Shown here in pieces: positions 2,546-38,400 of a stretch of DNA of 64,000 bases; the first letter of the stretch is position 1, and each line of letters starts with the position of its first letter. The stretch covers positions 1 to 64,000 of the forward strand of contig NZ_JAPSKV010000005.1 of assembly GCF_031181385.1 (NCBI RefSeq), in the 5' to 3' direction. Origin of the DNA: Fredinandcohnia onubensis. GTDB lineage: Bacteria; Bacillota; Bacilli; Bacillales; Bacillaceae_L. The notes under the pieces are model-generated. The model ran no database searches. It had not been told where the DNA came from and worked only from the letters and a program-made list of their open reading frames with translations. The translations under genes and the position numbers were made by a program.

Positions 2546-2577
2546 AAAAAAACCAGGACGATGTACCTGGTTTTTTT
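2546..2577. terminator. Bidirectional terminator between convergent genes
   Basis: AAAAAACCAGG and CCTGGTTTTTT form a stem with A- and T-runs on either side, so it can serve ykyB and the DUF1906 gene. Confidence 0.8.
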
Positions 2578-3226
2578 AATATAGGTAATTTAAAGCCCGC
2601 TGGTCAGCTAAATTTGTATCAATCGGACAGTCTTCCGAATCTTTTCCATATTGCCAAACCCATACATTTGCCTTGCATTTTGGTGATATTGGTTTAAATG
2701 TAGGTGCATTTCGTTCCTTTGTCACGCCAGGCTCAGGTTCGGCACTCCATAGGATCGTTTGGACAGCTACCTGTTTATTTTTTCGGACAGACTCACAATA
2801 AGCTACAGAAAAATCACCTTTGACGGGATCGTTATATAACCCTGGACGAAATCCACTTGGGTAAATCGATTCCACCCACCCCCGAATCCAAGCCTCGTCT
2901 ACAGCAAAAAAACGTTCCACGCTTGCAAACAATGCTACATTGTTTGGAATGCCAAGACGTCTTGCATTAAATACTGCATTTCTTGCAGCAATCTGCCCTT
3001 TTTCATATCCTATTGCATCAGAAAAAACATTATAGATGGGCAAAACCTTAATTCCTCGGTTCCGCAAGAATGAAATTTCTGCTCTTGTTAATCCTGCTGA
3101 AACATCGGGGACTTCACTTAAATATCGGCCCCAGAATTTCGGGTTCCCAAATTTAGATTTTACAAATGTATATAGCTCTTCATCAGCAGTTGCCGCTGAA
3201 TCCACTCCCCACACATATCTAGGCAT
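2576..3226 (-). CDS. DUF1906 glycoside-hydrolase-like TIM barrel protein
   Basis: A 216-residue protein matching the DUF1906 (Rv2525c-like glycoside hydrolase-like) family: WGVDSAATADEE at the start, FWGRYL, the KVLPIYNVF strand, GFRPGLYNDP and VWVWQYG near the end. B. subtilis YkuG carries the same domain with peptidoglycan-binding modules. Here the domain stands alone, with no signal peptide. Substrate is unknown; a cell-wall or spore-coat glycan is only an inference. ATG 3226 is preferred over GTG 3232 because AGGGG sits 8 nt upstream. It lies 25 bp downstream of the propeller gene on the same strand, so the two are probably co-transcribed. Confidence 0.75.
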   Translation of the reverse strand: MPRYVWGVDSAATADEELYTFVKSKFGNPKFWGRYLSEVPDVSAGLTRAEISFLRNRGIKVLPIYNVFSDAIGYEKGQIAARNAVFNARRLGIPNNVALFASVERFFAVDEAWIRGWVESIYPSGFRPGLYNDPVKGDFSVAYCESVRKNKQVAVQTILWSAEPEPGVTKERNAPTFKPISPKCKANVWVWQYGKDSEDCPIDTNLADQRALNYLY

Positions 3227-3251
3227 TTCCACAACCCCTGTTCAATTGAAA

Positions 3252-4520
3252 TTATGATTTCCATTTATGGATAAGTTGGTTGTTTTCTCCTCTAGCGAAA
3301 ACATCAATTCGGTTTCGATTCCATGAGGCTGAGGATGGTTCGGAAGTTAATGTACCACCAAGGTCCTCCCATTCATTCCAACGGCTTCCATCCCAATTTT
3401 TGAGATATAAATGTTCGTCTGTACCCTTTACAAAAACATCAAGATTATTAGGCTCTCTCGAAGATGCAGCTGGACTTGAGGTTAATTCCCCACCAAGATC
3501 CTCCCAATTACTCCAGCTTGAGCCGTCCCAATACTTATGAAAAAGAGCTCTATTTTCGCCTCGCGCAAAAACGTCGATACGATTTGGCCCCCACGACACC
3601 GCTCCAGGTGCAGACGTTAGAACACCGCCTAAATCCTCCCACTCACTCCAACTATCCCCATCCCAATATTTATGATAAAGATGGCGATCTGTGCCTCTTC
3701 CGAATACATCTAGGCGATTTTCAGCCCAAGATGAGACAGCAGGTGATGATGTTAAGACTCCACCCAAATCTTCCCACTCACTCCAAGTGGACCCGTTCCA
3801 ATATTTATGAATCAAGTGGTTATTCTCACCACGAGAAAACACATCTACCCTGCCAGGTCCCCATGAGACAGCTGCTGGTGAAGATGTAAGAGTACCTCCG
3901 AGGCTTTCCCAATCTGTCCAACTCGTTCCATTCCACATCCGCCGATACAACACACGGTTTCTTCCACGGACATAGACATCTAACTGATTTCTTCCTGGTA
4001 CAGTAACAGAAGGTCCAGATGTTAAGTAGCCTCCAAGGTCTTCCCATTCACTCCAATTCTTTTCAGGTGAAAAGCCAATAGTTTCATAAGTAAGTCGAAT
4101 AATCGCTTTAAATATTCTTTCAAGCTCTCGATCAGGAATTCGGTAAGGCGATAACACACCAAAAACCCAGTTGGCTTGACGACGAAATGCCTGATAGGTT
4201 TGATTCACTTTTTGATCTAAAGAACCTGAGAATTGATTTTGAGTCATCAATGTGTACATGACAAGTTGCATGGCTATATACTGCGATAATCTCCGGTTTA
4301 CATTAAATTCAGCTAAATGATCATAGTGAGGTTTTAAATTTTTTCGTACCTCTTTCCATACATTCTGAAATTCTTCTGTTTGTCTTTGCTGCTGTTCTGT
4401 AGTGGGTGTATTTATATAATGAGCCTGTTGATAGCCATTTGCGGGATAATAAGGATAATAATAGTTTGGAATCACGCGAGTATAAGGATTCATTGGATAT
4501 CCACCATATGGTTGATTCAT
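3252..4520 (-). CDS. Six-repeat PLL/DUF346-type beta-propeller lectin
   Basis: A 422-residue protein. Residues about 1-40 are rich in Tyr, Pro, Asn and Gln. Residues about 45-150 look helical and match nothing I know. From about 155 to the end come six ~45-residue repeats with the pattern W-x-x-W-E-D-L-G-G, LTSxP, then (R)xDVFxRG and L(I/Y)HKxW, as in DUF346 / PLL fucose-binding-lectin propellers. There is no signal peptide, so the protein is either cytosolic or assembled on the spore surface by the mother cell; that is inference. A good ribosome binding site (GGAGGT) precedes the ATG. The repeats create long spurious antisense frames. Partner: the DUF1906 gene just downstream. Confidence 0.75.
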   Translation of the reverse strand: MNQPYGGYPMNPYTRVIPNYYYPYYPANGYQQAHYINTPTTEQQQRQTEEFQNVWKEVRKNLKPHYDHLAEFNVNRRLSQYIAMQLVMYTLMTQNQFSGSLDQKVNQTYQAFRRQANWVFGVLSPYRIPDRELERIFKAIIRLTYETIGFSPEKNWSEWEDLGGYLTSGPSVTVPGRNQLDVYVRGRNRVLYRRMWNGTSWTDWESLGGTLTSSPAAVSWGPGRVDVFSRGENNHLIHKYWNGSTWSEWEDLGGVLTSSPAVSSWAENRLDVFGRGTDRHLYHKYWDGDSWSEWEDLGGVLTSAPGAVSWGPNRIDVFARGENRALFHKYWDGSSWSNWEDLGGELTSSPAASSREPNNLDVFVKGTDEHLYLKNWDGSRWNEWEDLGGTLTSEPSSASWNRNRIDVFARGENNQLIHKWKS

Positions 4521-4541
4521 GACAGGTACCTCCTTTTATTC

Positions 4542-4578
4542 TTTTAACTTTATTCAGCAAAACTGAATAAAGTTAAAA
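4542..4578. repeat. Perfect hairpin in the propeller gene leader
   Basis: TTTTAACTTTATTCAG and its exact reverse complement are separated by CAAAA, giving a 16-bp stem. On the minus strand it lies just upstream of the ribosome binding site of the propeller gene. The same TTAACTTTATTCAG arm recurs as an inverted pair at about 5169-5256. Confidence 0.75.
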
Positions 4579-4840
4579 AGTTGTTCATTTCATACTATGA
4601 ATTTTTTTAAGAAAGTAGCCCATTTTTTCGTATTCTCCGATCCTTATATCCTAGTTTGCCAATTCATCTAAATTCTGACATATCCAAATTTTCTAAAAAA
4701 ACACTTTACTTTTCGCCTAATTGCCTTCATAATAGAAAGACAACTAGAAATTATTAAATGAAATGATTCTAGTTATACGTATAAGGTGAAGGGGTTTTTG
4801 ATTTATAAAGAAGTGAAAAAATCAAAGGAGTGATTAAGTA
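4579..4840 (+). promoter_or_regulatory. Intergenic region with an 8-bp inverted repeat
   Basis: With the hairpin before it, this makes a gene-free stretch of about 320 bp. AACTAGAA (4742-4749) and TTCTAGTT (4767-4774) form an exact inverted repeat upstream of the IDEAL gene, which could be an operator or a leader hairpin. No other structure is evident. Confidence 0.35.
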
Positions 4841-18118: not shown

Positions 18119-18401
18119 AATTGCCCCCTATATTTATTTTATCAAATGCGCCTTGGCGTATTTGCGCCCGATTTTTAGGCCCACAGGAAGTGGGTCATAA
18201 AGACGTTGCCACAGGATGTGGCATTCTTAGTCTTTGATCTTACTGCTCGAAAAATTTCCTTTGAAAAATCGTGGCATCCGCCGGAGACTTAAACTAAAAT
18301 CGGCAGAACTTCTGCCGAATTTAGTTTATTAGTAATTCTATGACAATTTAAATTTATCAAAAATTTAGGTATTTTCCAACATAATTATTTTGCACCGTAA
18401 A
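18119..18401. repeat. Dispersed hairpin-rich repeat, copy B
   Basis: 18141-18292 is the fullest copy. It opens with CGCCTTGGCG, contains CCACAGGAAGTGGG and GCCACAGGATGTGGC hairpins and closes with GTGGCATCCGCCGGAG. The ends recur at 5078-5170 and the middle at 31187-31249. It is followed at about 18294-18330 by an inverted repeat around CGGCAGAACTTCTGCCG. No ORF is seen in this stretch. Confidence 0.65.
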
Positions 18402-22945: not shown

Positions 22946-23226
22946 GTCAAGCACCCCATTACCATTTGACAACAAGAAATTTTTTCTGTATAATAAAAAT
23001 TTGTTCCCTATTAACTTTAACATAATTATTATATATAGATATAGATAAATTTAATTTTTCGTTTTATCTTTTACATTTGGGAAAGACTTATTCACACTGG
23101 ACCGGCTTCGGAGCCGAAAGGACGAAAGAGAGGTAGGGCTTTCGTTGTTTAAGATTTTCAAATCTACCGCGGCATGTATGTATCATCAATTATGTAATTA
23201 AAGTTTTATTTCGCCCAAAAAAGTAA
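22946..23226. other. Intergenic region with two adjacent hairpins
   Basis: CGGCT-TCGG-AGCCG (23103-23116) and ACGAAAG...CTTTCGT (23122-23145) form two neighbouring GC-rich hairpins in an otherwise AT-rich gap of about 280 bp. No T-run follows on either strand, so they are not ordinary terminators. On the minus strand they would lie in the leader of the histidine kinase. I do not recognise a known RNA family. Confidence 0.4.
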
Positions 23227-31186: not shown

Positions 31187-31249
31187 AGTCCCAGACCATG
31201 TGAGTCATGAAGTCGATGCCACAGGACGTGGCATTCTTAGTCTTTGTTC
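31187..31249. repeat. Dispersed repeat, copy C (middle portion)
   Basis: Matches the middle of copy B: GCCACAGGACGTGGCATTCT then TAGTCTTTG, preceded by a diverged CCAGACCATGTGAGTCATGA. The ends of copies A and B are missing. The 31017-31346 gap holds no recognisable gene. Confidence 0.6.
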
Positions 31250-31346
31250 AATAGATAAGATAATTATAAAGGAAGAACTTAAAGGTGTGAAGGGTGTCTA
31301 CGATATGGTAAGATAAAACTTATTAAATATATGAGGGATGAAACAC

Positions 31347-32935: not shown

Positions 32936-35299
32936 TTAGGCTGGAGGATCAATATTTAAATCATCTGCAATTTCTTTTTCTTGATATTGTGTATCTTTTC
33001 GTGCATTGAAGCGCTCTGCTTTTTCAACATACACCGCAATATTGTAATCAGGAATACCAGCATATTTTTCATAGCGTCCTCTTGGTAATAAAAAGTTACC
33101 TTCTGGGAAGTGAACGCCTAGATTTTTTCTGGCGATATCAGCTAATTTAGCTTTTCCTTGGAATACTCCAAAGCCATTGTGGACAACGATCGCTTCACCG
33201 TCTGCAACCCGAAGCTCCTTCGCATCCATTGGATTGATTAACACATCATAACGGCCAGCTCCATTGAATGGATCAACCTCTTTATAAATCATCGAATTAA
33301 ATTGCTTTCCACGGCGAGTTGTTAATACGAATTGTTCTTCTTTTTTACCGAAATCAGGGATATCAACAGGGATTAGACTTCCCTTTCCATCCGGAGTCGG
33401 ACACACTCCACCTTCACAAAGCCATGCTCCTCCCCATTGGAACACATCCCCTTTTTTCTTGAGGTGTTGTATGCCGTTGTAGTTCGGATTGGCAATGGCA
33501 ATTTCATCGCGAATTTCCTGTCCGCTCTTAAAATCAATTAAATGTGCTTTTTCAGGTTTTACCCGCTTGGCGAGGTCAACATAAATTTTCCACTCTGCAC
33601 GTGCTTCAGCAATTTCATTTTTATTGCCTTCAATTTCAGGTGAAAAATAAACCATTCGCTCTGTTGATGTTGAAGTTCCTCCACCCTCTTGTTCATATCT
33701 TGTTTTCGCCGGTAAAACAATGACGGCTTCTTTTGCATCCACAAGTGTTGAAGTGTTTAAAATAATATCTTGATGCACACGAATATCTAGTTCAGACAAT
33801 GCTTTTTCGACAAACTTAGGGTCTGGCATTGTTTCAAGGAAATTGCCTCCAGACATATAATAAAGTTTTACCTTTCGCTCATGATCCTCTGGGAGTACGA
33901 TATTCTCGAGAGTAACCCCCACAATATCCCCTTGCCATTTTTGAATCTCAAAGCCCCAAATCTCTTCAAGGCGCTTCCTGTTTTTTTCATCAAATTCGCC
34001 ACCTGGCAGGACAAATGGATCGGCTCCCATTTCACCAGAACCTTGTACAGAAGAGTGCCCACGGAACGGCATAAGACCATTATACTTGCGGCCTAAGTGG
34101 CCACGCAGCAAGGCAAGATTTGCCACCTGCGAGATATTATCAGTTGCAAATGAATGCATCGTTAAGCCCATTGCCCATGTGTACACGGCATTTTTACTCT
34201 TGGCTAAAAGTTCTGCAAGTTCTCCGATTCTCTCTTTTGATACACCGGATGACTTTTCAATCTCATCCCAACTTTGCGCTTTTGCGTGCTCTTTTAATTC
34301 TTCATACCCATTTACATGTTCCTTCACGAACTTATGATTAATCGCAGATCCATGCTGCTTTTCTTCCATTTCAAACCAATGCTTCATAATTCCAAACATG
34401 AAGGCAATGTCTCCGCCAATGCTAACTTGGTAAAAATCATCTGCAAGCTTTGTTCCAAATAGGGCAGATTCCATATTAGATGGGATCCAGTATTTATCCA
34501 TTGCAGGTTCTCTGTGTGGGTTAATTACAATAATTTTTGTACCACGCTTTTTAGCTTCCAGCATGTATTTCGTTGAAACAGGTGAACTGTTTGATGCAAC
34601 ACTTCCCCAGAATACCAATACGTCTGTACCAATCCAGTCCTGATAATTGGAAGTCGATGCCCCAACACCGATAGAACGCTTCATCGCTGTTTTACTTGGC
34701 GAATGACAAATACGGGAAGCGTTATCAATATGGTTCGTTCCTAAGAAACGTGATACCTTAGCAGCCACATAATAAGATTCATTCGTAATCCCTCGGGAAG
34801 TCAGGTAAAATGCATACTGCTTCGGGTTCAACTTCTTCATTTTATTTGCAATCATGTCCATTGCTTCATCCCAGGAGATTCTAGAAAACTTTCTTTGTCC
34901 TTTACGACGAATCATCGGGTACGGTATTCTACCGAGCTTTCTTAGTTCAGTACTATTAAGCTTACGAAGCTCATCGATATCAGTATGAAGAATATCCGAT
35001 TGAATCGCCGGCATTGTACTTAAACGCAGTACATTTAAACGTGTCGTGCACATATGCGGACCTGTCAATGTTTGATCATAAAGTCCGGAAACACCAAGTG
35101 CACATCCGTCACAAACACCTTGCGTTAAAATACGAGTCGCATACCCTAGATTGTCCTTGTTTTCCCACGCAACTTTCATTGTATCTCGAATATGTTTCGG
35201 CTTCACTTTTCCTAAACCAAATGGGATTGGACTGACCCAATGCTTTGGTTGTGGCATTTTTGTTGATTTTATAGGTCCCTGATGCTTTGTTTCTCCCAC
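32936..35299 (-). CDS. FdhF/YdeP-type molybdopterin oxidoreductase
   Basis: A 787-residue cytosolic bis-MGD oxidoreductase of the FdhF/YdeP family. An N-terminal Cys cluster (Cys63, Cys66 in VCDGCALG and Cys84) suits one Fe-S centre. The Mo ligand is probably Cys198 in ASRICHSPS. DVLVFWGSVASNSSP and the MPFRGHSSVQGSGEMG segment are typical. The substrate is not proven: formate is implied by the neighbours fdhD, DUF2294 and an OFA transporter. The start is GTG with AAGGAGG upstream. The preceding leader has a terminator and the conserved hairpin described below. Confidence 0.88.
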   Translation of the reverse strand: MGETKHQGPIKSTKMPQPKHWVSPIPFGLGKVKPKHIRDTMKVAWENKDNLGYATRILTQGVCDGCALGVSGLYDQTLTGPHMCTTRLNVLRLSTMPAIQSDILHTDIDELRKLNSTELRKLGRIPYPMIRRKGQRKFSRISWDEAMDMIANKMKKLNPKQYAFYLTSRGITNESYYVAAKVSRFLGTNHIDNASRICHSPSKTAMKRSIGVGASTSNYQDWIGTDVLVFWGSVASNSSPVSTKYMLEAKKRGTKIIVINPHREPAMDKYWIPSNMESALFGTKLADDFYQVSIGGDIAFMFGIMKHWFEMEEKQHGSAINHKFVKEHVNGYEELKEHAKAQSWDEIEKSSGVSKERIGELAELLAKSKNAVYTWAMGLTMHSFATDNISQVANLALLRGHLGRKYNGLMPFRGHSSVQGSGEMGADPFVLPGGEFDEKNRKRLEEIWGFEIQKWQGDIVGVTLENIVLPEDHERKVKLYYMSGGNFLETMPDPKFVEKALSELDIRVHQDIILNTSTLVDAKEAVIVLPAKTRYEQEGGGTSTSTERMVYFSPEIEGNKNEIAEARAEWKIYVDLAKRVKPEKAHLIDFKSGQEIRDEIAIANPNYNGIQHLKKKGDVFQWGGAWLCEGGVCPTPDGKGSLIPVDIPDFGKKEEQFVLTTRRGKQFNSMIYKEVDPFNGAGRYDVLINPMDAKELRVADGEAIVVHNGFGVFQGKAKLADIARKNLGVHFPEGNFLLPRGRYEKYAGIPDYNIAVYVEKAERFNARKDTQYQEKEIADDLNIDPPA

Positions 35300-35420
35300 T
35301 TTTTACTCCTCCTTCTCCTTTTTCCTTTATTACTATGTCTATGGTCAAAGTCAACTTATATTAACTATGCTTTCGGCATTAAACTACTTAATCCTTCTAA
35401 AACCCTAAAATTATAGAAAA

Positions 35421-35505
35421 AACCACCGAAACATGATTCTCTACGAACATAGAGAAATGAAACGGTGGTTAGTCTTTAGCAGGGTCGCTACCAAGTGCCA
35501 ACACA
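35421..35505 (-). promoter_or_regulatory. Candidate RNA switch: single hairpin and terminator
   Basis: On the minus strand, 35502-35468 folds as closing stem GUUGG/CUAAC, then CUU/AAG, then a hairpin UGGUAG-CGACC-CUGCUA. Next comes a terminator (AACCACCG at 35470-35463 with CGGTGGTT at 35428-35421, then TTTTTT). The closing stem's 3' arm overlaps the terminator's 5' arm, so the two folds exclude each other. Same motif and design as the leader of the OFA gene. It lies between the DUF2294 and oxidoreductase genes. Confidence 0.6.
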
Positions 35506-35508
35506 ATA

Positions 35509-35871
35509 TTATTTTGTTTTAAATTTCTTCTCTAGATCTTGATCAAATACAAAAACTGACATTCCGAAATCTCGATCAATATCAATATCAACAAATAAAT
35601 CTACTAGGTTTGAACCTAAAAACTCTTCCATTTCAACTGGTCTGTTTTTTCGGTACATTTCTTTTACCATTTCGGTTCTTGCCGCACGAAGCATTTGTTT
35701 TCCTTCATCCGCACCGGCAATAAATTTTTCAACTGGAGATAGGTTTCCTTCCATCTCACATATGGCCCAATTTTTACAAAAGGTTGTGGTGATTTTACTA
35801 GGTCCTTTCCCCATGTGCTTTTTGCGGAACGACCTCACTAGATTGCTAAACTCAGCTTCGTATTTATTCAT
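35509..35871 (-). CDS. DUF2294 protein
   Basis: A 120-residue soluble protein of DUF2294, like B. subtilis YrhF, whose gene is also next to a formate dehydrogenase-like gene. Motifs are LVRSFRKKHMGKGPSKITT and a VDLFVDIDIDRDF segment near the C terminus. Function is unknown. The ribosome binding site is GAGGTAG. It lies 61 bp after the OFA gene, in the same presumed operon. Confidence 0.78.
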   Translation of the reverse strand: MNKYEAEFSNLVRSFRKKHMGKGPSKITTTFCKNWAICEMEGNLSPVEKFIAGADEGKQMLRAARTEMVKEMYRKNRPVEMEEFLGSNLVDLFVDIDIDRDFGMSVFVFDQDLEKKFKTK

Positions 35872-35932: not shown

Positions 35933-37198
35933 TCAACCAGCAAGCTCAGCAGCATTCGTAGATTGTTTCTTTTGTAACTTTTTTATATCTAATCGGATTA
36001 GAAGTGAAATCGCCAAAGCAACAGCAAAGAGTGCAGTAAATACTGTTAAGCTTTGTGTGTAGCTTCCAGTTGTGTCCCGAATCCAAGATGCGAACATTGG
36101 ACCAGCAAGACCTGCCGCTGCCCATGCAGTTAAAATGTAGCCGTGGATTGCACCAAGCTGTTTTGTTCCAAACAAGTCCCCAATGTAAGCCGGGATTGCA
36201 GCGAACCCACCACCGTAACATGTATAGATAAGTGCCAGTAATACCTGAAATAACACTGGATTCGACACATGTGGCAGTAACGGAAACGCAACTACTTGGA
36301 TAAGAAAAAATACTGTATATGTATTGGGTCTCCCTAAGTAATCAGACACTGACGCCCAACCAATACGACCAAGCCCGTTAAATGCGCCTAAAACTCCCAC
36401 TAACGCTGCAGCTGCAACTGGAGTTAAACCTACACTTTCTTGTGCAAGTGGAGAAGCAGCAGAAATGATTGCTATACCGCACGTAACATTGATAAAGAGC
36501 ATGAGCCATAAATAATAGAAACGTTTTGTCTTTATCGCTTGGTTAGCAGTTAATTGTGATAAATCCTGTTTTACCTTCTTAGCTCCACTTGAAACCTTCT
36601 CTTTAAAGCCAGCCGGTAACCATCCTTCTTTCGGTGGTGCAAGGTAAAGTGACGCCAAGATCATAATGATAAAATAAGAGATTCCAAGGACATAAAACGT
36701 ATTTGCAATTCCTACTGATACAATCAGTTTTTGCATGATGGGACTGCTGATTAGTGACGCAAATCCAAACCCCATAATCGCAAGGCCCGTTGCCATGCCA
36801 CGTCTGTCAGGGAACCATTTTACAAGTGTTGATACTGGAGCAATGTATCCAACGCCTAGACCAATTCCACCTAACGCACCATAGAATAAATACAATAATG
36901 GCAATGATTCTAGGTTAATCGCAAGACCAGAGCCCGTGATACCGACGCCAAAGAATATAGCAGCTAGAATGCCAGATGCGCGAGGGCCATATTTTTCAAC
37001 AAAATGCCCTAGGAAAGCCGCTGATAATCCTAAGAAAAGGATCGCGATACTAAAGGTCATGCTGATGTCGGTTAAATCCCATCCGAATTCTGATTGTAGA
37101 GGTTTTGTAAATACACTCCAGGCGTAAACAGAACCGATAGATAAGTGAATTCCAACGGCCGAGGCTGCAATCAGCCAACGATTTTTTGACTTTTCCAT
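35933..37198 (-). CDS. OFA-family MFS transporter
   Basis: A 421-residue twelve-helix major facilitator of the oxalate/formate antiporter (OFA) family. It opens RWLIAASAVGIHLSIGSVYAWSVF, typical of the family, and has RRGMATGLAIMGFGF in helix 4-5 and GxxxDxxGRP-like DYLGRPNTY between helices. Likely substrate is an organic anion such as oxalate or formate, based on family and neighbours. The ribosome binding site is AAGGAGAG. Its leader carries a tandem of the conserved hairpin and a terminator. Confidence 0.85.
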   Translation of the reverse strand: MEKSKNRWLIAASAVGIHLSIGSVYAWSVFTKPLQSEFGWDLTDISMTFSIAILFLGLSAAFLGHFVEKYGPRASGILAAIFFGVGITGSGLAINLESLPLLYLFYGALGGIGLGVGYIAPVSTLVKWFPDRRGMATGLAIMGFGFASLISSPIMQKLIVSVGIANTFYVLGISYFIIMILASLYLAPPKEGWLPAGFKEKVSSGAKKVKQDLSQLTANQAIKTKRFYYLWLMLFINVTCGIAIISAASPLAQESVGLTPVAAAALVGVLGAFNGLGRIGWASVSDYLGRPNTYTVFFLIQVVAFPLLPHVSNPVLFQVLLALIYTCYGGGFAAIPAYIGDLFGTKQLGAIHGYILTAWAAAGLAGPMFASWIRDTTGSYTQSLTVFTALFAVALAISLLIRLDIKKLQKKQSTNAAELAG

Positions 37199-37250
37199 TT
37201 CTTCTCTCCTTTGTTTTGAATAAATAGGTTACATTTTGCAGTAGTATAAA

Positions 37251-37421
37251 AAACAAAAAAACCGCCAGCAGCCTTATGCTTAAAAAAGCATAAAAAGGAT
37301 GATGACGGTTAATTTTCCTAGCAGGTTCGCTACTACAAAATTAACAGTAATCGCTTCCAATATCGCACCTTTTGCAGCAGAGACAGGTTCGCTATCCTGT
37401 GACAAAAGTGTGTCAATATTG
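37251..37421 (-). promoter_or_regulatory. Candidate RNA switch: tandem hairpins and terminator
   Basis: Minus strand, 5' to 3'. Unit A (37421-37358): interrupted stem CAAUAU/AUAUUG, CAC/GUG, CUUUUG/CAAAAG enclosing GGAUAG-CGAAC-CUGUCU. Unit B (37345-37308): GUUAAUUUU/AAAAUUAAC enclosing UAGUAG-CGAAC-CUGCUA. Terminator (37310-37251): AACCG/CGGTT closing an inner UAUGCUU/AAGCAUA hairpin, then a T-run. Unit B's 3' arm overlaps the terminator 5' arm. A possible promoter (ttgcaa at 37451, AT-rich -10 near 37430) puts the transcript start at the beginning of unit A. I cannot name the class. Confidence 0.65.
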
Positions 37422-37590
37422 TGAACTATATAATAAAATATTACCAAAGCTTGCAAAATAAAACAATAGATTTTATTTAACTATTTCGAGTAGTGAAAAT
37501 TTTTATTGTTGTCCTTCCAATAAAAATATGATTATATATTTAGTAACTAGTTACGTTATTCAAACTCTGAAAGGAAAGTGAGGTGTATAG

Positions 37591-38400
37591 ATGATGGATA
37601 CCATTTCTGTTAGAAAAGGGATTATCAAATTTGAAGATGGTCAGCTTTTTGATGAGGAAGATGAAATTGTGACTGAATTTCCTTTGACTATTATCTTGAA
37701 CCAACAAGAATTTGCAACGATGGTTTGTACCCCTTCAGAACTTGATGAACTGGTAATTGGCTTTTTAGCTTCAGAAGGAGTCATCCGTTTTAGAGACGAA
37801 ATTAAAAATCTCCATATCGATGAAGGTCAAGGTTATGCCTATGTTGATACGACTAAAGAAGTAACAACAAGTCAGGAATATTATTCAAAGCGTTTTATCG
37901 GTTCCTGTTGTGGAAAAGGAAGACAATTCTATTTTGTCAATGACTCTAAAACAGCCAAAACATCAACATCAACCATTACCCTCACACCTGAAGAATGCAT
38001 TACCTTAATGAACGAAATGCAACAAAATAGTGTTGTCTTTAAAGATACAGGCGGTGTGCACAATGCAGCACTTTGCACGCCAAATGAAATGATTGTGAAC
38101 CGAACCGATATTGGCAGACATAATGCTCTTGATAAAATTTATGGATATTGTCTAAATCATAAAATTCCTGTTCGTGATAAAGTGATTGTGTTTAGTGGTA
38201 GAATTTCTTCTGAGGTATTATTAAAGGCCGCAAAAATTGGGGTTGGGATTGTTTTATCCAAGTCAGCACCAACTGATCTGGCTATTAAAATGGCTGAAGA
38301 ACTGAACATAACTGCTGTTGGTTTTATCCGCGGAGGAAAGTTAAATGTCTATTCACATCCAGAACGAATTGTACAGAATTTGGTTGAGACTACGAGATAA
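37591..38400 (+). CDS. fdhD: Formate dehydrogenase accessory sulfurtransferase FdhD
   Basis: A 269-residue FdhD protein, which transfers sulfur to the bis-MGD cofactor of formate dehydrogenases. The Cys-rich loop GSCCGKGR carries the sulfur-accepting Cys; FKDTGGVHNAALC and RTDIGRHNALDK are family signatures, and the C terminus GFIRGGKLNVYSHPERI is complete. It is divergent from the OFA-DUF2294-oxidoreductase operon and probably serves its enzyme. The ribosome binding site is GTGAGGTG. Terminator at 38405-38442. Confidence 0.93.
   Translation: MMDTISVRKGIIKFEDGQLFDEEDEIVTEFPLTIILNQQEFATMVCTPSELDELVIGFLASEGVIRFRDEIKNLHIDEGQGYAYVDTTKEVTTSQEYYSKRFIGSCCGKGRQFYFVNDSKTAKTSTSTITLTPEECITLMNEMQQNSVVFKDTGGVHNAALCTPNEMIVNRTDIGRHNALDKIYGYCLNHKIPVRDKVIVFSGRISSEVLLKAAKIGVGIVLSKSAPTDLAIKMAEELNITAVGFIRGGKLNVYSHPERIVQNLVETTR

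Follow-up and report, generated by a model that had tools for sequence, protein, structure and literature searches.

What decides whether transcription proceeds into the gene of an OFA-family transporter in Fredinandcohnia onubensis? In the window, which is the whole stretch of 64,000 nucleotides that was analysed, the leader of this gene was described in a first-pass annotation as two tandem hairpins, the second of which shares bases with an intrinsic terminator. A ligand or a protein was supposed to stabilise the hairpins and allow read-through. The operon has the order unit A, unit B, terminator, OFA, mpsC, unit C, terminator, fdhA, with fdhD divergent from it. Its features are as follows.

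37591 to 38400, plus strand: fdhD, formate dehydrogenase accessory sulfurtransferase, divergent
37430 to 37457, minus strand: promoter-like TTTGCA-16-TATTAT, 9 of 12 consensus positions; a start would fall near unit A
37358 to 37421, minus strand: unit A, long imperfect hairpin with core UAGCGAACCUG at 37394-37384, the conserved first unit of OFA leaders
37308 to 37345, minus strand: unit B, putative antiterminator hairpin with core UAGCGAACCUG at 37332-37322; its 3′ arm is common with the terminator
37254 to 37310, minus strand: OFA-leader intrinsic terminator, AACCGUC...GGCGGUU plus U run, -21.6 kcal/mol
35933 to 37198, minus strand: OFA-family MFS transporter (NCBIfam L-lactate MFS transporter SfMCT, 472 bits, cut-off 320)
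35509 to 35871, minus strand: mpsC, PF10057 MpsC/DUF2294 small protein, putative RNA-binding antiterminator (from profile match, co-occurrence and predicted fold)
35467 to 35502, minus strand: unit C, putative antiterminator hairpin with core UAGCGACCCUG at 35490-35480; its 3′ arm CUAACC is common with the terminator
35415 to 35470, minus strand: mpsC-fdhA intrinsic terminator, AACCACCG...CGGUGGUU plus U run, -21.9 kcal/mol
32936 to 35299, minus strand: fdhA, FdhF/YdeP-family molybdopterin oxidoreductase, formate-dehydrogenase-like (TIGR01701, 809 bits, cut-off 582)

The FdhA-like protein scores above the cut-off of the FdhF/YdeP subfamily (TIGR01701) and below that of the Fdh-alpha equivalog.

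The two tandem units proved real, and a third copy, which the annotation had counted, was found before the formate-dehydrogenase-like gene, where it also overlaps a terminator; unit C begins 7 nt past the final base of mpsC. Four matches to the core with at most one mismatch occur in the window, against a mean of 0.85 in 100 shuffled sequences, one of which reached four. The 171-nt stretch encompassing units A and B and the first terminator folds at -57.4 kcal/mol (z = -5.8), and none of 200 shuffles folded that low. A covariance model of this hairpin, hereafter class I (model R1), finds the three known copies in the genome of the window, and only these are solid. A fourth exact core is enclosed by a transporter ORF, and the one additional match of the model has an E value of 0.25; both were rejected.

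The sharing of bases between unit B and the terminator was borne out, since the 3′ arm of B runs to 37308 and the 5′ arm of the terminator starts at 37310. For units B and C of the window, as in relatives, hairpin and terminator have bases in common and exclude each other. When each element was folded alone, the terminators were much the more stable (-21.6 versus -10.5 kcal/mol for hairpin B in the OFA leader, and -21.9 versus -8.9 kcal/mol for hairpin C in the fdhA leader). An unaided hairpin should therefore lose, and would need help to form. Neither terminator was listed by a simple terminator consensus scan of the window, because its rule admits only short loops and stems without interruption. 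A cre-like box, GGAAGCGATTA (window 37345-37360, minus strand), is located between units A and B, and many related loci have a cre-like box, GTAAGCGATTA, between the two hairpins. The label follows what we take to be the cre consensus, and CcpA control may thus be layered on the leader.

The annotation had found no fit among the known elements that it weighed. Rfam 15 gave four matches in the whole window at gathering score, none at the hairpins: two Bacillaceae-1 RNAs (18180-18246 and 31190-31256), BsrC (23072-23158) and, unexpectedly, STnc490 (3-115). Nothing relevant was returned for 37190-37600 at E values up to 5, and seven related loci yielded one match, located elsewhere in one of them (L184). 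In the literature covered, mostly non-subscription and at the level of abstracts, no paper was recognisable as describing the element.

The hairpin was expected to be conserved upstream of homologous genes in related genomes, and this is what we found. Eighty loci were fetched by FdhA protein similarity alone (the best 80 of 243), and loci were called motif-positive by the pentaloop pattern on the coding strand in the 2.8 kb upstream of fdhA. The element is present in 61 of the 80, which hold 151 hairpins (122 with a pentaloop and 29 with a hexaloop) when two more outer pairs are required; by the same test it is absent from the other 19, and the opposite strand of the 61 positive loci has none. 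The element occupies the OFA position in 57 loci, of which 54 have two or more units inside 150 nt and 3 a single unit. In an automatic test, overlap with a terminator was detected for 23 of 23 pentaloop B units, 55 of 60 C units and 11 of 59 A units, and the five C units that failed show a terminator on reading. The proposal that a stabilised hairpin leads to read-through fits this anatomy of the B and C units and is to that extent supported. Of the 57 loci, 41 have a promoter-like site with at least 9 of 12 consensus positions ahead of the first unit, versus 18 in shuffles. The site ends 38 to 43 nt before the core in 21 of those 41, a spacing at which the transcript would begin with unit A. 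In the leader region of the window such sites are not above shuffles (6 versus 6.5) and the candidate is weak; the mRNA there perhaps begins with unit A.

The consensus was built from 142 units collected with the pattern [CT]AGCG..CCTG held fixed, of which 63 were dropped at 90% identity or more. Two matches in L081 were left out of the alignment as they lie inside an OFA-like ORF (L081 is counted among the 19 negative loci). The 79 non-redundant units, of all three types (A, B and C), align without gaps. They comprise five loop-proximal pairs, a 1-nt bulge on the 3′ side, three pairs, a 2x1 internal loop and, outermost, a further stem; unit B of the window deviates from the consensus in this outer stem. 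The core consensus is YAG-CGNNC-CUG, with a loop of 5 or 6 nucleotides and a few loop variants. The fixed CGAAC loop of the annotation gave way to CGNNC, or CGNNNC in many B units.

The claim that the outer base pairs covary was upheld across the 79 units. Cells changed on both sides number 222 versus 94 in shuffles, 83.7% of cells are paired versus 66.0%, and the covariation score is 0.517 versus 0.235, none of 500 shuffles being as high in any of the three. Further pair types were also in excess (42 versus 35.5; 2 of 500 shuffles as high), whereas the number of pairs with a change on both sides was not exceptional (11 versus 9.9, with 114 of 500 shuffles as high). Sliding the partner by one to three columns left at most 47.3% of cells paired. 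The two innermost pairs never vary, but the invariance of these pairs and of the core columns is uninformative because the collecting pattern demanded them, and the covariation therefore rests on the remaining pairs. Conservation peaks in the apical core, fixed as it is by the pattern, and the internal loop is variable; B units read outside the pattern mostly keep the apical core.

Which genes does the element control? In the order, R1 matches 86 of 396 genomes at an E value of 0.05, 75 of them at 1e-3 or better (hereafter strong); the 11 genomes with a best E value of 0.004 to 0.04 were counted as weak. In the class, the tandem-core pattern occurs in 52 of 398 genomes, some of the matches being plainly repeats; the control, a reversed pattern, occurs in 16 genomes. 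Family f68 includes many genomes with two tandem pairs about 1.9 kb apart, and in the loci read (L148-L150) these pairs precede OFA and fdhA. Among the weak model matches, those in L124, L133, L134, L135, L137, L138 and L143 have their cores inside predicted ORFs and were taken as chance, those in L139 and L142 have no core that matches the pattern, the one in L140 is intergenic (E = 0.023), and the one in L141 proved to be an OFA leader.

The annotation had tied the element to the OFA leader, and it is present there without being confined to it. Units precede moaA followed by fdhA in L146, L147, L159 and L160, fdhD after OFA-mpsC in L151, and a stand-alone mpsC in L156. L174 and L175 have an operon of OFA, mpsC and a ForC-type formate dehydrogenase followed by a DUF1641-like gene, assignments that were confirmed for L174. 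In L145, tandem class I hairpins stand before a formate dehydrogenase split by an in-frame UGA (4216-4647 and 2557-4074), both pieces of which match the Fdh-alpha family TIGR01591 best. To judge from its sequence, this enzyme is probably a selenoprotein, and a GGUC-bearing stretch after the UGA is presumably SECIS-like. Two genomes from separate families have units before a chemoreceptor gene (MCP) whose sensor is an sCache_3_3 domain, two units in L121 (4261-4315) and one in L136 (4202). In L131, a receptor with sCache_3_3 is divergent from OFA. The sCache_3_3 chemoreceptors may respond to whatever compound the pathway senses. What the controlled genes share is formate as a theme: its uptake, its oxidation and the cofactor path.

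Of the ligand or protein that the annotation had left as alternatives, the protein is favoured by co-occurrence, which points to the PF10057/MpsC orthologue. By tblastn, mpsC is adjacent in 57 of the 61 motif-positive FdhA loci and in none of the 19 motif-negative ones, whereas OFA lies near fdhA in 57 of 61 and 7 of 19, respectively. The four positive loci without a linked mpsC (L025, L029, L030 and L057) have an orthologue elsewhere in the genome, with 81 to 88% identity. No orthologue was found in the 18 searchable motif-negative FdhA genomes, whose completeness is unstated; the best match had an E value of 1.8e-28 and 43% identity. In the order sample, orthologues (at least 71% identity and 190 bits) are set off by a clean gap from paralogues (at most 51% and 122 bits). 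Of its 396 genomes, 75 have both the strong motif and the orthologue, none the motif only, 3 the orthologue only and 318 neither. The three orthologue-only genomes (G025, G160 and G279) have tandem AGCGNNCCTG cores before OFA despite the lack of a model match, and the orthologue is absent from all 11 weak-motif genomes. Outside the order, all six motif-positive genomes tested have it.

Because gene and motif usually share one operon, much of this co-occurrence is gain or loss of the operon as a unit, and the numbers are plain counts of genomes. The association is near-perfect and includes genomes in which the gene is unlinked. In six genomes (G307, G327 and G756-G759) mpsC and the fdhA element are apart, and in two of these (G307 and G327) the gene is beside fdhD, away from the motif operon. 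These cases represent few lineages, as the leaders of G307 and L029 (G757) are 94% identical. In the genome of L035 no mpsC match was found; two units remain upstream of fdhA with the loops CGUUU and UAUAC, and a terminator stands beside them. The altered loops are as expected after loss of a binding protein.

The MpsC protein of the window matches the PF10057 profile with 116 bits (cut-off 23, E = 1e-33); three other members of the family were scanned as well. It has 120 residues and an overall pI of only 7.7, and its first quarter is basic, with 7 Lys or Arg versus 2 Asp or Glu in 30 residues. Among 41 MpsC orthologues 48 positions are invariant, 38 of them in the first 70 residues. The AlphaFold model is confident (pLDDT 91.5, pTM 0.84) and predicts a helix at residues 3-20, two strands, three helices, two strands and a helix. 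Foldseek gave no significant match of this model in the PDB (best E = 0.0095) and the sequence matched nothing among PDB sequences below an E value of 0.4; no known RNA-binding fold thus backs MpsC. The MpsC of the Staphylococcus mpsABC locus belongs to the same Pfam family by name, the comparison resting on the family name and not on the S. aureus protein itself. In the part of PMC6689103 covered here no RNA role is proposed for S. aureus mpsC, whereas the gene of the window sits in a formate operon; that part reports no growth phenotype for an mpsC deletion and describes the gene as dispensable for MpsAB function.

We fetched 31 contexts of MpsC paralogues (42 to 51% identity), and a ForC-like formate dehydrogenase gene lies near in 24 and fdhD in 22. 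The ForC leaders bear a hairpin of a second class, GGAUUGGU...UUAGYA-NGNNY-UGCUAA...AACUAUUCC, which overlaps a terminator. Class I has AG-CGNNC-CU, in OFA and FdhF-type operons, and class II YA-NGNNY-UG, in ForCE operons. The gene behind the class II hairpins encodes a ForC-type formate dehydrogenase and has a DUF1641 neighbour, a likeness to the Bacillus ForCE operons (yjgC-yjgD and yrhE-yrhD); the class I operon found in L174 has a ForC-type enzyme too. In the part of the ForCE paper that was covered (PMC8808070) there is no mention of the term DUF2294. A covariance model of class II (R2) matches 54 of 338 genomes. A paralogue of about 45% identity is present in 52 of the 54, the remaining 2 having none at that level, and the class I orthologue in none; 7 of 59 genomes with the paralogue lack a class II match, the sample here being approximated by the handles up to G337. 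The class II pairs are 96% formed over 12 distinct rows, and covariation is weak because the rows are too similar. Locus L184, in the neighbourhood of a paralogue, has a c-di-AMP riboswitch at 251-390 (Rfam RF00379).

Genes of a further, VGNGP type of PF10057 have a hairpin-like stretch adjoining a terminator in L162 (upstream of 1845) and in L204 (66-120), single examples which suggest that this subtype has a third hairpin class. More distant PF10057-like proteins (22 to 24% identity over the match), bearing the motif LGRGSVSVKTDI or a similar one, occur in other contexts in L164, L165, L169, L170 and L172.

We consider it probable that the element is an MpsC-dependent antiterminator, in which MpsC binds the hairpin, blocks the terminator and so brings about read-through; that MpsC touches the RNA, and that binding means read-through, is what we infer from the leader anatomy and the co-occurrence. 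The terminator-adjacent unit lends its 3′ arm to the 5′ arm of the terminator, so that only one of the two folds can form. Without help the terminator would win and transcription would stop. MpsC would bind the apical core, on units A and B in tandem before OFA and on the single unit C before fdhA, and the hairpin so held would prevent the terminator, letting the polymerase read on. The activity of MpsC would depend on some signal connected with formate or with formate oxidation; that formate itself is the signal is a guess, plausible from the regulon. In the part of PMC8808070 covered, B. subtilis forCE1 and forCE2 are seemingly not expressed under anaerobiosis, fermentation or formate induction. 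As mpsC follows the first leader in the operon, it would raise its own expression in a positive feedback. Against this reading count the usual sharing of one operon by gene and motif, the few lineages with unlinked mpsC, the unexceptional number of pairs changed on both sides, the absence of a significant PDB match, the modest pI, the S. aureus deletion without growth phenotype, and the incomplete pairing and weak covariation of class II.

The alternative that survives best, though we regard it as unlikely, is a riboswitch aptamer stabilised by formate, a molybdopterin product or another pathway metabolite, with MpsC merely a protein of the pathway. The leader position, the overlap with a terminator and the tandem arrangement are all riboswitch-like, and the controlled genes share one theme (OFA, three types of formate dehydrogenase, fdhD, moaA and chemoreceptors). 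However, an intact element is found in none of the 19 FdhA loci without mpsC, 7 of which have OFA, though the same metabolites would be expected there, and a paralogous MpsC is paired with a different loop. Conservation, moreover, is highest in the apical core and not in the internal loop, an argument tempered by the fixed pattern and sustained by the B units read outside it.

Less probable still is that MpsC acts in the opposite sense or at another step, for instance by favouring termination, or that the main role of the hairpins is to shield the mRNA at its 5′ end. The possible position of unit A at the transcript start and the scarcity of terminator overlap among A units would suit such a role, and the relic in L035, which keeps its terminator, does not tell the sign of the effect. 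Units B and C, on the other hand, share bases with the terminator stem, and stabilising them should disfavour termination.

Antiterminator hairpins that overlap terminators are known. RAT elements are hairpins with an asymmetric internal loop whose 3′ arm overlaps an intrinsic terminator and which are stabilised by a LicT/SacY/BglG protein. ANTAR sites (EutV, NasR, AmiR) lie in the leaders of metabolic operons and consist of two tandem hairpins, of which the second overlaps a terminator; their hexaloop has A at position 1 and G at position 4. The hairpins described here resemble RAT elements in their asymmetric internal loops and in a 3′ arm overlapping the terminator, protein stabilisation being the proposed part of the likeness, and single units such as that before fdhA come closest to them; in the OFA leaders the tandem arrangement resembles ANTAR sites. 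That a known family of either type recognises them is nonetheless very improbable: the loop is CGNNC or CGNNNC instead of the ANTAR hexaloop, and single units stand before fdhA; 64 of 396 genomes have an ANTAR match (PF03861), but 65 of the 75 strong-motif genomes have none, which leaves only 10; and CAT-RBD (PF03123) genes, present in 5 of the 6 strong-motif genomes searched, were not found in the sixth (G034, 97% complete), a thin test, while the protein associated here, PF10057, is of another Pfam family than CAT-RBD and the hairpins have no Rfam match. What is known is thus the terminator-overlapping antiterminator hairpin, and what differs here is the RNA core, the protein family and the predicted fold.

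The MpsC-dependent antiterminator leads to a broader reading, which we hold with somewhat less assurance but still think likelier than its denial: PF10057 would be a new family of RNA-binding antiterminators for formate metabolism, its subfamilies having co-evolved with at least two hairpin classes and perhaps a third, and it may sense formate or an oxidation product. The two paralogous RNA-protein pairs, with their different loops, make specificity directly testable. If this reading is true, a Pfam family whose present transporter-related name misleads would gain a function, and transcription antitermination an apparently new RNA-binding fold. The same reading would also explain the control of formate transport and formate dehydrogenases in many Bacilli, control that in some genomes would extend to FdhD, cofactor genes and chemoreceptors.
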